Shown: positions 48,250 through 52,850 of the stretch, in pieces | Position numbering within the stretch: position 1 is the stretch's first letter | Layout: every line of letters starts with the position of its first letter | NCBI RefSeq assembly: GCF_012027305.1 | Contig: NZ_SNUF01000001.1 | Span: 248,001 to 312,000 of the forward strand | DNA from: Thermococcus sp. MAR1 | GTDB lineage: Archaea > Methanobacteriota_B > Thermococci > Thermococcales > Thermococcaceae | Direction of reading: 5' to 3' | Length of the DNA stretch: 64,000 nucleotides | Made by a program: the position numbers and the translations under genes | Notes under the pieces: model-generated | Told to the model about the DNA's origin: nothing | The model's input: the letters and a program-made list of their open reading frames with translations, nothing else | The model's database searches: none

Positions 48250-48269
48250 ATTATCTTGGTGAAGATAAT
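48250..48269. repeat. 8-bp inverted repeat over the start codon of ATPase gene 2
   Basis: ATTATCTT (48250-48257), GGTG spacer, AAGATAAT (48262-48269). The ribosome binding site is the loop and the right arm enters the ATG. Confidence 0.6.
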
Positions 48270-49638
48270 GTTTGTCAATCGAAAAGATGAGCTGGCTCTC
48301 ATTGAGTCTTTCTACTCTTCTGGCAAAAAGGAGATCCTGATTCTCTACGGGCGCAGGCGAGTTGGAAAGACCGAACTCCTAAAGAGGTTTATTCGGGGGA
48401 AGAATGCCCTCTATTTTTTAGCCGACAGGGACGGACTGGAGTCAAATGCTAAAAGATTTTACTTTGAAGCGGTGGAGGTTCTTGGACTTCCTAAGCTGGA
48501 GGTGAGGGACTTTAGAGAGGCTTTCGAGTTGATAAAGCTCAGGGCACCCGAGAGGTTTGTCGTTGTCATAGATGAGTTCTCCTACCTTCTCCTCGCGGAC
48601 AAGAATACTCCTGCGGTTTTCCAGCACGTGATAGATGAAATCCTTGACGACCGATTTTTCCTAATTTTGAGCGGCTCGATAATCGGCCTTATGGAAGGGT
48701 TGATGAACTATACCAACCCCCTCTATGGCAGAAGAACGGCACAGCTTAAGCTTAAGCCCTTGAACTTCTTCCATGTTCGAGAATACTTCGAAAACGCGCC
48801 CATCGAAACCGTCGTGAGGATATACTCGGTAACTGGCGGCGTGCCCATGTACTTCCGGCTCTTTGAGGGAAAGAACTTCGAGGAGGAACTCCTCAGGGTG
48901 GCGTTCTCGCCTACGTCCATACTCTACGAGGAGCCAGAGTTCATCCTGAGGGAGGAACTTGGTGACGTGCACAGGTATTATCTAATTCTTGAGGCGATGG
49001 CCCTTGGAAAGCACAGGGTGAGTGAGATTGCGAACTTCGCGGGAATCGAGGCAAAGGACATGCCAAAGTACCTGAGGACTTTAATCTCTCTCGAACTCGT
49101 GAGGCGCGAGGTTCCCGTTATAGAGTCTGAGAGGAGCAGAAAAGCCCGCTACTATCTCAACGACAACTTCTTCGCATTCTGGTTCCGCTTCGTAAAGCCA
49201 AACCGGGGAAGGATAGAGATCGGGACGTTCGAGATGGACTGGAATGCCTTCAACGCCTACGTGGGAAAGGCATTTGAAGATATGGCGAGGCAGTTCCTCA
49301 TTGAGCTGAACAAAGCCGGAAAGCTTCCCTTTAGGTTTACGAAAATCGGCCGCTGGTGGCACAAGAGGGAGGAGATCGACATCGTTGCCCTCGACGAGGG
49401 GGAGAAGAAAGCCCTCTTTGTGGAAGTCAAGTGGAAAGACCTTAGCTTGAGGGAGGCGAGGGGAGTTTTGAATGACTTGGAGAGGAAAAGTGGGCTCGTT
49501 GGGCTGGAAGGGTGGGGGAAGTTTTACGGAATAGTGGCGAAGGGCATTAAAGGGAAGGAAGAACTCAGGGTGGAGGGCTACCTCGCTTGGGATTTGGAGG
49601 ATTTCGAAAGGCTTATCTCTTCTGAAAGCGGAGTTTGA
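48268..49638 (+). CDS. Archaeal AAA-type ATPase with C-terminal DUF234 (nuclease-like) domain, copy 2
   Basis: 456 residues. Walker A YGRRRVGKTELLKRF, Walker B FVVVIDEFSYL, sensor LILSGSIIGLM, winged-helix region (VSEIANFAGIEAKDMPKYLRTLISLEL) and a DUF234 domain WWHKREEIDIVAL...ALFVEVKWKD. The N-terminal two thirds differ from copy 1 at 39498, but the C-terminal domain is very similar. ATG 48268 follows GGTGAAGATA. ATP-driven remodelling coupled to a nuclease-like domain is a plausible but untested role. Confidence 0.88.
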   Translation: MFVNRKDELALIESFYSSGKKEILILYGRRRVGKTELLKRFIRGKNALYFLADRDGLESNAKRFYFEAVEVLGLPKLEVRDFREAFELIKLRAPERFVVVIDEFSYLLLADKNTPAVFQHVIDEILDDRFFLILSGSIIGLMEGLMNYTNPLYGRRTAQLKLKPLNFFHVREYFENAPIETVVRIYSVTGGVPMYFRLFEGKNFEEELLRVAFSPTSILYEEPEFILREELGDVHRYYLILEAMALGKHRVSEIANFAGIEAKDMPKYLRTLISLELVRREVPVIESERSRKARYYLNDNFFAFWFRFVKPNRGRIEIGTFEMDWNAFNAYVGKAFEDMARQFLIELNKAGKLPFRFTKIGRWWHKREEIDIVALDEGEKKALFVEVKWKDLSLREARGVLNDLERKSGLVGLEGWGKFYGIVAKGIKGKEELRVEGYLAWDLEDFERLISSESGV

Positions 49639-49667
49639 GGGGTGATGCCTTTGTCGCTTTTGCCTTT
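49600..49667 (+). repeat. 68-bp near-identical segment, copy 2
   Basis: Matches 40836-40903 with one difference. It spans the end of ATPase 2 and the first codons (MPLSLLPL) of a decayed frame that stops at 49687. Confidence 0.75.
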
Positions 49668-49688
49668 ATCGGGAAGGGGCAAATAAAC

Positions 49689-49949
49689 GTGGCGAGAGTT
49701 CCCAAACCCTCCGGAGAACTTTCCGGGGCAAAGCTCGAAGTCCTCTCCATTCTTCACGGCCTCGAATTTGCGGGCTTTTCTGATGAAGCCAAGCAGAAGG
49801 CCATCGAGAGACTCTCCGCAAGGATAGGGGAAGTTTCCGCTGAGAAGCTAACGCCCGAGAACCTTCAAAAGCTTGGCCTCTACGCCTTTGCAATCGAGAT
49901 AATCAAAAGGAACGAGTTTGGGAGAGCCAAGGAAATCGAGGGGTTTTAA
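49689..49949 (+). CDS. Small partner protein after ATPase 2, N-terminally truncated
   Basis: 86 residues from GTG 49689 (ARVPKPSGELSGAKLEVLSILHGLEFAGFSDEAKQKAIERL...), helical. Upstream, an ATG at 49646 gives MPLSLLPLSGRGK and then a stop, the same beginning as the longer remnant after ATPase 1. An internal deletion has therefore fused start and body out of frame. The remaining ORF may still be expressed from the GTG (GGGAAGGGGCAAATAAAC before it). Function unknown. Confidence 0.5.
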   Translation: MARVPKPSGELSGAKLEVLSILHGLEFAGFSDEAKQKAIERLSARIGEVSAEKLTPENLQKLGLYAFAIEIIKRNEFGRAKEIEGF

Positions 49950-50119
49950 CGTCTTTTCCTTGCTTCCTTCATTCTGATGTACTCCTCCTTGGTGAGCGGA
50001 AATCCTTTAGCGGACTGGAGGAACGAGTTTATCAGCTTCACCTGTTGCCTGAATACCTCGTCGGGGTTCTCCTTCAACCTTTTCACGTACAGCCTTATGA
50101 AGGCCAGCCTCTCCTCCAT
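49946..50119 (-). CDS. Small basic protein downstream of a nucleotidyltransferase
   Basis: 57 residues (MEERLAFIRLYVKRLKENPDEVFRQQ...EYIRMKEARKRR), helical and basic. The start is ATG 50119, 7 bases after the stop of the nucleotidyltransferase gene and without a strong ribosome binding site. Gene order suggests a partner protein; an antitoxin or toxin role is only a hypothesis. Confidence 0.6.
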   Translation of the reverse strand: MEERLAFIRLYVKRLKENPDEVFRQQVKLINSFLQSAKGFPLTKEEYIRMKEARKRR

Positions 50120-50126
50120 ATCGCGC

Positions 50127-50705
50127 TTAGAACGGTACTTCGACGTTGAGCCTCTCCGCGTAGTCATTTAGCGCCCTCCTGTCTATCCTTTCCTTGAAAA
50201 GCTCATAGAGGAAGAACGCGTCTTCGAAGTCCTTATCACTTCCGAGGTAGAGCTTGTACGCTATCTGCAGTTCTATCGGTGAGATGTAAATCCTCCTGCC
50301 GCTGAGCTCCGCGGGAATTCTCATCTCAAGGGCCTCCCGGTGGAAGTAGTCCTTTGGAAACTTTATCTCCGCGTTTGGGATTATCTCCCCCTGCCTTGCC
50401 ATCCTTATTCCCATTCTCTGGAGGAGCATTTCATAGAGGCCCCCGCAGTCCTCTGGGTTGAGGAACTCGAAGCCCCTTAACTTTGCCTCATCGCACATCT
50501 TCAGGAACCTCTGCTCCGAAACCCTCTCCATTACAAAGTCCACGTCCTCAGTTCCACGGGAGCGACCGAAGAGAATCGTGACGTAGCCGCTGACTATTAC
50601 ATAGGGAGCGTATTTTTCTATGAGCTCGACCACGTCCAATACGAACTTATCCAGCTCGCTCAGCTGGCGGTTGATTATGATGGGATTTCCAATCCTAATT
50701 CCCAT
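50127..50705 (-). CDS. Nucleotidyltransferase-fold protein
   Basis: 192 residues. Nucleotidyltransferase-like core with VSGYVTILFGRSRGTEDVDFVMERVS (about 39-64), where GRSRGTEDVD holds the metal-binding Asp-x-Asp, followed by PISPIELQIAYKLYLGSDKDFEDAFFL. This resembles MNT/AbiEii-like and DUF1814-like proteins. ATG 50705 follows GGGGATAGC. A TATA box (50736-50744) and an AACTTG/CAAGTT dyad lie upstream. Substrate unknown. Confidence 0.78.
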   Translation of the reverse strand: MGIRIGNPIIINRQLSELDKFVLDVVELIEKYAPYVIVSGYVTILFGRSRGTEDVDFVMERVSEQRFLKMCDEAKLRGFEFLNPEDCGGLYEMLLQRMGIRMARQGEIIPNAEIKFPKDYFHREALEMRIPAELSGRRIYISPIELQIAYKLYLGSDKDFEDAFFLYELFKERIDRRALNDYAERLNVEVPF

Positions 50706-50735
50706 GCTATCCCCATTGATTTTTTGCCCCTTGGT

Positions 50736-50744
50736 GTATTTATC
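50736..50744 (-). promoter_or_regulatory. TATA box of the nucleotidyltransferase gene
   Basis: The minus strand GATAAATAC lies 31-39 bases upstream of the ATG and 12 bp downstream of a dyad element. Confidence 0.55.
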
Positions 50745-50756
50745 CCTTTCTCGCTC

Positions 50757-50776
50757 AACTTGTACCCCCGCAAGTT
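50757..50776. repeat. AACTTG-N8-CAAGTT dyad at the ATPase 3 stop / nucleotidyltransferase promoter
   Basis: AACTTG (50757-50762), spacer TACCCCCG, CAAGTT (50771-50776). The right arm contains two bases of the ATPase stop codon. The same arms and spacer length occur twice at the ATPase 5' end. Confidence 0.75.
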
Positions 50777-51857
50777 AAAGCTCCCTGAAGACCTTCGCCA
50801 ACACGGGGTCGGGGATGAGGTATCTGCCCCCTTTCTTTTCCACGTAGCCCGCTTTGACGAGGTTCTCAAGCAAAGCTGAAAAGTTCGAGTCGTTTACGGG
50901 GCCAAGCTTCAGGGAAAGGTAGTCTCTAATGTCCTTCCAGCGGGAATAGTTCAACGCTATCGCCTTCAGTATGAAGCGGTATCTTGGGCTGTAGTTGAAG
51001 AGCCTCGACAGCTCGTTTCCAGCTATGGCCTTTGCTTCCCTCAGAACTTCCTCCATGGCTTCATTATGTCCGAGCTTTCTCGTTATCCTTATGTATCCGT
51101 AGAGGGAGAGCCAGCCTGGAATGCCATCGAGCTCTTCAACGGCCCCTTCGATTTCCCTTTCCGTAACTTTAAACTTGGTCTCTTCGAAGCCCATTCTCAG
51201 AAATTCTCTGCTCAGGTCAGGATTAAAACGCTCAAGGGCTATGTCGTGGTGGTATCTGCCGAAGAGAGGCGCTTCAGGGTCGTTAAACTTCAAGAAGTCA
51301 AAGAGAAGACCCACCTCTGAGCCGGTGAGAATGAATGTCAGATTTTCGAGGTTGTCGATGGCATAAGCCAAAATCCCATCGTACCTTGTGGCCCCCCCAA
51401 AGCGCAGGTACTGGGCCTCGTCAAAGGCTATAACGACCCTTCCGGCTTTCTCGCCGTATTCGTTGAGCGCTTCCAAGAGCTCGGTTATCGAGAAGTCCTT
51501 CGAGGTTATCTCCAACCTGAGCCCGGAAACGCTTACCCCTTTGACCCTCTCAAGGAAGAGCTTCGCCTCCTCAACCAGCTTTTTCCTTCCGCTCATTCCT
51601 GAAAGGAGCATCTTCCCGATTACGTACCTGTTGACGGATGAGAGCTCGGAGTAGGTCTTTCTCACGTCGACTTTTATCGAGGGATAGGTGAGCTCGTTGA
51701 GTGCAACGTTGAGTAGTGAGCTCTTTCCAAGCCTCCTGAGGCCGAGAAGGAGGATTAGCCTTTCTCCTCTTTCCACTGCCTCCTTAAGCTCCCTGAGTTC
51801 CTTATCCCTGTCGAAGAGTTCTTCCCTCTTCGTCTTTGGGTAGGGTGAAAACAGCAT
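50775..51857 (-). CDS. Archaeal AAA-type ATPase without nuclease domain (ATPase 3)
   Basis: 360 residues. Walker A LLGLRRLGKSSLLNVA (about 36-51), Walker B VVIAFDEAQYLRF, sensor FILTGSEVGLLF, and a C-terminal winged-helix domain (DYLSLKLGPVNDSNFSALLENLVKAGYVEKKGGRYLI). No DUF234 domain, unlike the two ATPases at 39.5 and 48.3 kb. I start at ATG 51857, directly after a dyad whose GGGGGTG spacer is the ribosome binding site. It is followed by the nucleotidyltransferase gene. Confidence 0.87.
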   Translation of the reverse strand: MLFSPYPKTKREELFDRDKELRELKEAVERGERLILLLGLRRLGKSSLLNVALNELTYPSIKVDVRKTYSELSSVNRYVIGKMLLSGMSGRKKLVEEAKLFLERVKGVSVSGLRLEITSKDFSITELLEALNEYGEKAGRVVIAFDEAQYLRFGGATRYDGILAYAIDNLENLTFILTGSEVGLLFDFLKFNDPEAPLFGRYHHDIALERFNPDLSREFLRMGFEETKFKVTEREIEGAVEELDGIPGWLSLYGYIRITRKLGHNEAMEEVLREAKAIAGNELSRLFNYSPRYRFILKAIALNYSRWKDIRDYLSLKLGPVNDSNFSALLENLVKAGYVEKKGGRYLIPDPVLAKVFREL

Positions 51858-51858
51858 T

Positions 51859-51878
51859 AACTTGCACCCCCACAAGTT
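51859..51878. repeat. AACTTG-N8-CAAGTT dyad at the ATPase 3 start
   Basis: AACTTG (51859-51864), CACCCCCA, CAAGTT (51873-51878), ending two bases from the start codon. The complement GGGGGTG is the likely ribosome binding site, so a protein or RNA hairpin here would block translation. Confidence 0.75.
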
Positions 51879-51897
51879 ACTTGCACCCCTGCAAGTT
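51878..51897. repeat. Second dyad of the pair at the ATPase 3 promoter
   Basis: TACTTG (one mismatch), CACCCCTG, CAAGTT (51892-51897), 19 bp from the first dyad and touching the TATA-like CCTTTTAAC (51895-51903, minus strand). Confidence 0.7.
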
Positions 51898-51912
51898 AAA
51901 AGGCTTTCCCCC

Positions 51913-51944
51913 AACCTTTGCTTTCGCAAAGGTTGATCAAAAAG
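51913..51944. repeat. Hairpin repeat with GATCAAAAAG tag
   Basis: AACCTTTG / CAAAGGTT stem (51913-51934) followed by GATCAAAAAG. Similar tagged hairpins recur at 52227 and 52517. Confidence 0.5.
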
Positions 51945-52226
51945 TCTTCGCCGTTAAAAGGGTATGGAAATGTTTGCATGCTATTTTAATGAGGTGTGTT
52001 TTAATGGGTTTGTATCAAATTTCATTGATTTTGGGCGTGTTTTACTCTAACTCAGCGCCCGAAGGGCGCCAAAAATGAAAAACATGAGTAAGAGCTGGCA
52101 AGATTAAGAATAAACCCATGTAAAAATAGGCTCATTTAAAAGGCATGCCAGTTTTGATGAAACTTTTTCCAGAAAAGTTTCTTAACGTGGGGCGAAGCCC
52201 CACTTCGGGGGTTTGAGAGTACAGAG

Positions 52227-52253
52227 CAAGCTTTAAGAAAGCTTGACCAAAAG
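52227..52253. repeat. Hairpin repeat with GACCAAAAG tag
   Basis: Stem CAAGCTTT (52227-52234) and AAAGCTTG (52238-52245), followed by ACCAAAAG. Confidence 0.5.
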
Positions 52254-52516
52254 TTTGTAATTTTTTGAGGTAGTGCCCTTGAAGAGGGATTCATTTCAAA
52301 ATCAGCCATTAGGAAGTTGGATTCCTCGAACAGATTTTTTCACATGGGTTCTACTTCAACCGCGCTCCTTCGGAGCGCTAAAAACGCTTGAACCCTCCTG
52401 GAACGCATCCTTAGAATGAATTCATTCTGCCCAAAAAGAAGTCCTCAAAGAAATCCACTCCAGAACACGCTTTTCAAGAGGAATCACCAACCTTGATCAA
52501 ACGTCACGCAGGCGAA

Positions 52517-52545
52517 CAAGCTTTTAAAAAAGCTTGACCAAAAAG
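52517..52545. repeat. Hairpin repeat with GACCAAAAAG tag
   Basis: Stem CAAGCTTTT (52517-52525) and AAAAGCTTG (52528-52536), followed by ACCAAAAAG. Confidence 0.5.
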
Positions 52546-52833
52546 AGTCCTCTTCTGTTAAACCAAACAGAGAATAAAAGCGTGCACATTTAAAAACTAC
52601 TTGAAAACAAGGTTCAATTCTAATGTCTGGCTGTTACTCGGTTTCACTTTCATTCTGGCGTTCTTCGAACGCCTTGTGGGAGCGAAACGTTGTACCAGTG
52701 GCAATTGGAGAGTGAACCACTTAAAAACGGGCATTTTTGAGAAAGCACACCTTCTTTCCGCCAGCGCTTGCGAAGCAAGGGCTGATTGCAAAAAAATTAT
52801 ACACCACCCAACCCAAAAAAGGGTGGAACGGTT

Positions 52834-52850
52834 CGAAAGCCTTTTAAATA
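52834..52850 (+). promoter_or_regulatory. Promoter of the S10/spc ribosomal operon
   Basis: CGAAAGCCTTTTAAATA is a strong BRE/TATA match 57-73 bases upstream of the first gene's ATG (52907), consistent with a leader of about 35 bases. Confidence 0.65.

Follow-up and report, generated by a model that had tools for sequence, protein, structure and literature searches.

The closest described relatives of the protein studied here are SSO1545 (PDB 2FNA) and PABY2304 of Pyrococcus abyssi (PDB 2QEN), full-length homologs with the same AAA+ and winged-helix architecture. Structures of this ATPase family were solved from 2006-2008 onward with no known function, and some archaeal genomes carry more than 10 copies. 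Whereas SSO1545 and PABY2304 are known from structures only, we describe putative operators and a recognition code; no operator, autoregulation, palindrome or recognition code for the SSO1545/2QEN family was found in the open-access papers searched. Archaeal Orc1/Cdc6 proteins on origin recognition boxes (2QBY, 2V1U) also combine an AAA+ domain with a winged helix and are the best DNA-bound fold matches. However, their sites lie at the origin rather than at the start codon of their own gene, and the identity is 17-18%. Origin recognition boxes likewise combine an inverted repeat with a G-run. STAND NTPases such as CED-4, MalT and the mycobacterial IniR are related in fold, and IniR, which has an SSO1545-like ATPase domain, binds and activates a promoter (PMC5760070). 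Unlike them, the present ATPase has no sensor or repeat domain and is a predicted self-repressor with one target. Classical autorepressors, including antitoxins and phage repressors, also bind dyads over their own promoters, and their paralogs diverge in specificity. The ATPase system differs from these in its predicted AAA+ binder, its fixed tandem geometry across phyla, its stop-codon copies and its lack of a partner gene. Autoregulation is ordinary in principle, but it is undescribed for this ATPase family in the literature searched.

We analysed a 64,000-nucleotide stretch of Thermococcus sp. MAR1 DNA, hereafter the window, that encodes one such ATPase. Its ribosomal-protein neighbourhood and the relatives identified likewise point to a member of Thermococcaceae. 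The ATPase's ATPase_2 match (76.1 bits against a curated cut-off of 33.2) and full-length homology to 2QEN (E 5e-78) and 2FNA (E 2e-48) place it in the SSO1545/2QEN family, and its Walker-type residues are conserved in sequence. The predicted model (pLDDT 91) matches the solved members in Foldseek with a TM of 0.89, and DNA-bound Orc1/Cdc6 structures come next in fold similarity, behind 2QEN and 2FNA. The recognition helix comprises residues 323-336, with residue 323 first. Matches of the ATPase to PDC-S27/S01 were taken as generic ATPase matches. From the comparisons below, we put the probability at roughly 80% that this AAA+ protein binds DNA and controls its own gene. Three repeats around the gene would most likely be the binding sites by which it does so.

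The initial annotation had noticed these repeats, and we found them as described: exact AACTTG-N8-CAAGTT dyads at 50757-50776 and 51859-51878 and a one-mismatch copy at 51878-51897, with two over the ATPase promoter and ribosome binding site and the third at the stop codon (Table 1). Some details needed revision. The gene starts at ATG 51857, giving 360 aa, rather than at TTG 51929, and the spacers, called C-rich, are G-rich on the coding (-) strand. Both upstream dyads are present, but they form one tandem unit of 18-bp dyads with a 19-bp period that spans the interval from the TATA box to the ATG, and the predicted Shine-Dalgarno sequence is embedded in the second, proximal dyad.

Table 1. 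Features of the ATPase locus, in window positions.
Feature	Position	Strand	Remarks
Small basic protein P0003, 73 aa	49946..50167	-	Overlaps the nucleotidyltransferase; not in the operator system
Nucleotidyltransferase P0002, 192 aa	50127..50705	-	MenT/AbiEii-like fold; not in the operator system
3' operator dyad copy, ACTTGCGGGGGTACAAGT	50758..50775	-	Overlaps the ATPase stop codon
ATPase gene P0001, 360 aa	50775..51857	-	AAA+/ATPase_2 domain (PF01637) and C-terminal winged helix
Proximal operator dyad, ACTTGTGGGGGTGCAAGT	51860..51877	-	2 nt before the ATPase ATG
GGGGGTG, predicted Shine-Dalgarno	51865..51871	-	Inside the proximal dyad spacer; from sequence and sense-strand G bias
Distal operator dyad, ACTTGCAGGGGTGCAAGT	51879..51896	-	Period of 19 with the proximal dyad
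TATA-like TTTTAA	51896..51901	-	Touches the distal dyad; same placement in relatives

The dyad is not scattered through the host genome. A genome-wide pattern scan found no exact AACTTG-N8-CAAGTT elsewhere in the 2.02 Mb, and allowing up to one mismatch added three sites with unrelated spacers. The reversed control pattern gave five sites at the same tolerance, so the chance background is about as large as these three additional sites. At the locus, all three copies lie within 1.14 kb and have a YRGGGGTR spacer. In a family-wide scan, genomes with the GGGG-type dyad mostly had it at a single locus, where two copies were usually arranged in tandem at a 19-bp period. The S1 dyads (the ATPase subfamilies are numbered S1 and up) have no other targets in the host genome. 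The intergenic region at 51900-52850 is rich in other short hairpins, such as CAACCTTTGCTTTCGCAAAGGTTG and CAAGCTTTAAGAAAGCTTG, that recur beside the S1 loci of relatives.

Because one dyad lies just upstream of the nucleotidyltransferase TATA box, the initial annotation had joined the ATPase, the nucleotidyltransferase and the small protein into a co-regulated toxin-antitoxin or defence module. The same placement is seen in G000 and G060, with a scar pair in G071, and the AlphaFold model of the nucleotidyltransferase, which has an SGY...GR...TEDxD signature, is indeed MenT-like, with the MenT1 and MenT3/TglT toxins as best matches. However, when homologous loci were searched, the dyads stayed with the ATPase and not with the nucleotidyltransferase. 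Homologs of the nucleotidyltransferase at other places (at least 15 other genomes) are preceded by a TATA box of their own and by no dyad, and ATPases with dyads nearly always lack the nucleotidyltransferase and small protein alongside. Among the loci examined, dyads occur near a nucleotidyltransferase only in the three genomes just named, each with the ATPase or its scar directly upstream. The third dyad is the ATPase's own 3' copy rather than an element of shared control. With neither conserved co-occurrence nor shared control sites among the three genes, we regard such a module as extremely unlikely; the idea that the dyads are control-type sites, and probably targets of the winged helix, survives without it.

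The guess of a toxin may still hold for the nucleotidyltransferase and small protein as a separate pair, given the MenT-like fold. The 73-aa protein adjoins the nucleotidyltransferase in all eight loci examined, and the two are kept together at several unrelated Thermococcaceae loci. We propose them as a candidate MenT-like toxin-antitoxin pair, independent of the ATPase. Pfam, NCBIfam, PADLOC and PHROGs returned no function for the nucleotidyltransferase, the small protein or a 104-aa ORF at 49635-49949. This ORF is apparently the C-terminal remnant of a longer Thermococcales protein, and its counterparts in relatives often end with their stop codon directly against the S1 dyad, on the opposite side. 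The neighbouring gene at 48256-49638 encodes a DUF234-type ATPase/nuclease (PF01637 and PF03008) that matches the PADLOC candidate PDC-S27 (E 8e-40). Homologs of this ATPase/nuclease turn up repeatedly in this variable region, which has an RNA-ligase-like gene on one side and the SPOUT/RPL3 genes on the other.

Dyads accompany the ATPase in about 25 genomes, and nearly all S1 ATPases have a dyad pair ending right before the start codon. The family includes at least eight paralogous subfamilies, and every Thermococcaceae subfamily examined has its own arm sequence at this same position. Examples are TAACTTACCCCGGGGTAAGTAACTTACGGTGGGGTAAG-TTG in S2, AGTATCGGTACCGATACTTAGTATCGGGGGCGATACCT-ATG in S4 and GGTAACGGTACCGTTACCTGGTAACGGGGGCATTACCT-ATG in S7, while S3 has inner half-sites only, CCACCAGT-A-ACTGGTGG. 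Exact cognate arms lie upstream of 22/23 S1, 20/20 S2, 9/10 S3, 14/16 S4/8, 7/7 S5 and 5/6 S7 genes. Non-cognate arm types were found upstream of none of the ATPases, except between S2 and S5, which have common arms; the S2/S5 pattern matches in 46 of 94 genomes and its reversed control in none. Since S2 and S5 have the arm ACTTAC in common inside one genome, orthogonality is incomplete. S5-type pairs also occur near another gene: one at L350:2344-2378, some 50 bp ahead of the gene for a 260-aa membrane protein (MRVFVRDYLLPW...) and near the S5 ATPase in G022, and a degenerate one at L086:5744-5761, before the same gene in G017. These may be a second target or a scar.

With different arms, this layout recurs in relatives from Desulfurococcales, Pyrodictiaceae, Korarchaeota, Hadarchaea, Sulfolobales (Metallosphaera), Thermoplasmata (DHVE2), Thorarchaeota and others; the Metallosphaera operator reads ACTAACAGGGTGTTAGT-AT-ACTAACAGGGTGTTAGT and that of Hadesarchaea GTTCAAGGGGTTGAAC-TA-GTTCAAGGGGTTGAAC. 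We scanned with a flexible geometry and matched controls because the fixed 18/19 geometry missed many operators outside Thermococcaceae. Dyad scores exceeded every control window in 69 of 83 Thermococcaceae (Mann-Whitney p 6e-40) and in 26 of 36 other archaea (p 4.5e-20), the remaining 10 of the 36 not exceeding the best control; 31 of the 36 passed the 99th percentile of control windows. Palindromicity is maximal at the start codon and, 60 nt upstream, no longer exceeds background. The period is 19 in 90 of 102 cases, the gap to the start codon is 0-2 nt in 87 of 102, and an AT-rich hexamer at the TATA position immediately precedes the distal dyad. Cognate palindromic sites are thus found over the ATPases' own promoters. 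A further ATPase subgroup (L315, L326, L328 and L337) has a CCCCATAATGGGG-type palindrome at the start codon, in some cases with a 3' copy, which the tandem model does not fit.

We read the half-sites outward from the centre of each pair and compared every protein column with every operator base in 46 representatives (<70% identity); about 22 half-site registers were set by hand before residues were compared, and 10 sequences had no assignable register. Of all these pairings, residue 323 and operator base 2 were the most strongly associated (z 17). For base 5, residue 325 ranked first among the columns (z 9), and for base 4, residue 324 ranked second (z 6.9), so that two to three ATPase residues predict operator letters of the protein's own site. 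An acidic residue 323 (D/E) goes with C (n=81) and N/K/S/R with G (n=39), a rule that fits 120 of 121 cases; the exception, L299, combines Pro and a mixed operator. We also built a tree from the AAA+ region, leaving out the winged helix; each of the seven parsimony changes in base 2 maps to a branch on which residue 323 switches class. Residue 323 changes class eight times on this tree, and the extra change is the exception. S5, whose PEPRLY recognition helix is that of 2QEN, is nested among Asn/G subfamilies and yet has Asp/Glu with C. The architecture of the sites, its conservation and this covariation are direct results of computation.

As a hold-out, we used paralogs from the same outgroup genomes, with selection criteria scripted before the residues were read. 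Base 2 was predicted correctly in 14 of 14, although the hold-out is not fully independent because its members are related to the training set; among weaker hold-out operators there was one contradiction, L417, with Ser and a C-type operator. Together, the covariation and the hold-out suggest that specificity is set by the protein's own DNA-binding domain. They strongly back the earlier suggestion that the winged helix would bind the dyad. Palindromic operators over promoters are typical targets of regulators in general, and the dyads might serve another, unlinked transcription factor. Such a common regulator would need no new site for each paralog, whereas the operator sequence tracks the ATPase subfamily, and on seven independent branches it varies together with that ATPase's recognition helix; we can hardly credit this alternative.

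We propose that each AAA+/winged-helix ATPase represses its own gene through a private operator. The C-terminal winged helix would read the dyad arms; the two 18-bp dyads, offering four half-sites at a 19-bp period, fill the space between TATA box and start codon. In archaeal promoters, a TATA box at this position would put the transcript start inside the dyads, which would place them at a repressor position. Bound ATPase would then cover the transcription start and the embedded Shine-Dalgarno sequence, and the gene would be repressed. We infer that the protein binds, that it represses instead of activating, and that nucleotide state has a controlling role. As operator and recognition helix change together, each paralog would have a largely private switch. 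Given that no other target is visible, one may speculate that self-limitation is the gene's actual purpose, much as for genes of a selfish or addiction type.

The dyads could instead act in RNA, as a leader hairpin that hides or presents the Shine-Dalgarno sequence and so controls translation. In 71 of 73 Thermococcaceae, the sense strand of the proximal spacer is rich in G, while the distal spacer favours neither strand (25 G, 21 C, 27 equal), and this difference indicates that the proximal spacer doubles as the Shine-Dalgarno sequence. A G-run fixed on the sense strand only there speaks for such a hairpin. However, the distal dyad, with its unbiased spacer, sits at the TATA box, probably at or upstream of the transcript start; S3 and S9 retain only the inner palindrome with a 1-nt centre, a poor hairpin; copies also lie 3' of the gene; and the covariation is with a DNA-recognition helix. 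We therefore think control through RNA very improbable.

Simple autorepression does not account for the 3' copies. Cognate 3' dyads follow 10/23 S1, 10/20 S2, 8/10 S3 and 1/7 S5 genes and none in S4/8 and S7; in S1, the TAA stop codon forms part of the dyad. In several genomes, the ATPase coding sequence is flanked exactly by dyads at its ATG and stop codon. Additionally, some loci appear empty: G071 has one pair and no ATPase, and joins the 5' flank of G000 to its 3' flank at that pair, while the pair left beside the TBP gene in G016 and G023 combines the 5' distal dyad with the last 3' dyad of the filled G044. L099, L103 and L110 show plain decay, with ATPase remnants left.

These arrangements might mean that the gene is an excisable or mobile cassette bounded by dyads that serve as recombination or landing sites. 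The exact flanking, the one-pair loci in matching flanks and the presence of S1 at several unrelated loci in different lineages would suit such a cassette, and arms around an asymmetric 8-bp spacer generally resemble recombinase core sites. On the other hand, no recombinase or transposase lies nearby, a 3' copy is absent from many members (S4, S7, Pyrococcus-type S1, outgroups), some "empty" sites retain ATPase remnants or have a different 5' flank, and a search of viral contigs and plasmids found no relatives. Precise losses between 5' and 3' operator copies do appear, from the compared loci, to occur, and precise deletion between the repeats, by homologous recombination or slippage, is sufficient to explain the empty sites. 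We consider a mobile cassette unlikely, and identification of the dyads as loxP/FRT-like or dif-like sites was rejected for lack of recombinase evidence. It is also quite doubtful that the ATPase binds and joins its 5' and 3' operators and so promotes, or prevents, its own excision and reinsertion at scars, as a one-gene, self-regulated mobile unit without its own recombinase that has spread across archaea. Under autorepression, the 3' copy would be a second, non-essential binding site that also permits precise gene loss by recombination between copies.

For a family long known only as structures, the operators predict sequence-specific DNA binding, and they indicate the DNA that each protein would bind and the residues to swap. 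Taken as a set, the natural paralog-operator pairs amount to a recognition code for base 2 and, in part, bases 4 and 5; they are also candidate orthogonal repressor-operator pairs for hyperthermophile genetics. This self-operator layout, conserved across archaeal phyla, is specific enough for immediate testing. The locus also illustrates that a gene may look co-regulated with its neighbour merely because of a 3' operator copy. At another locus, L187 (G067:C91), an S9 ATPase adjoins an orphan S3 operator with the promoter flank usual for S3, an arrangement that looks like the replacement of one paralog by another.
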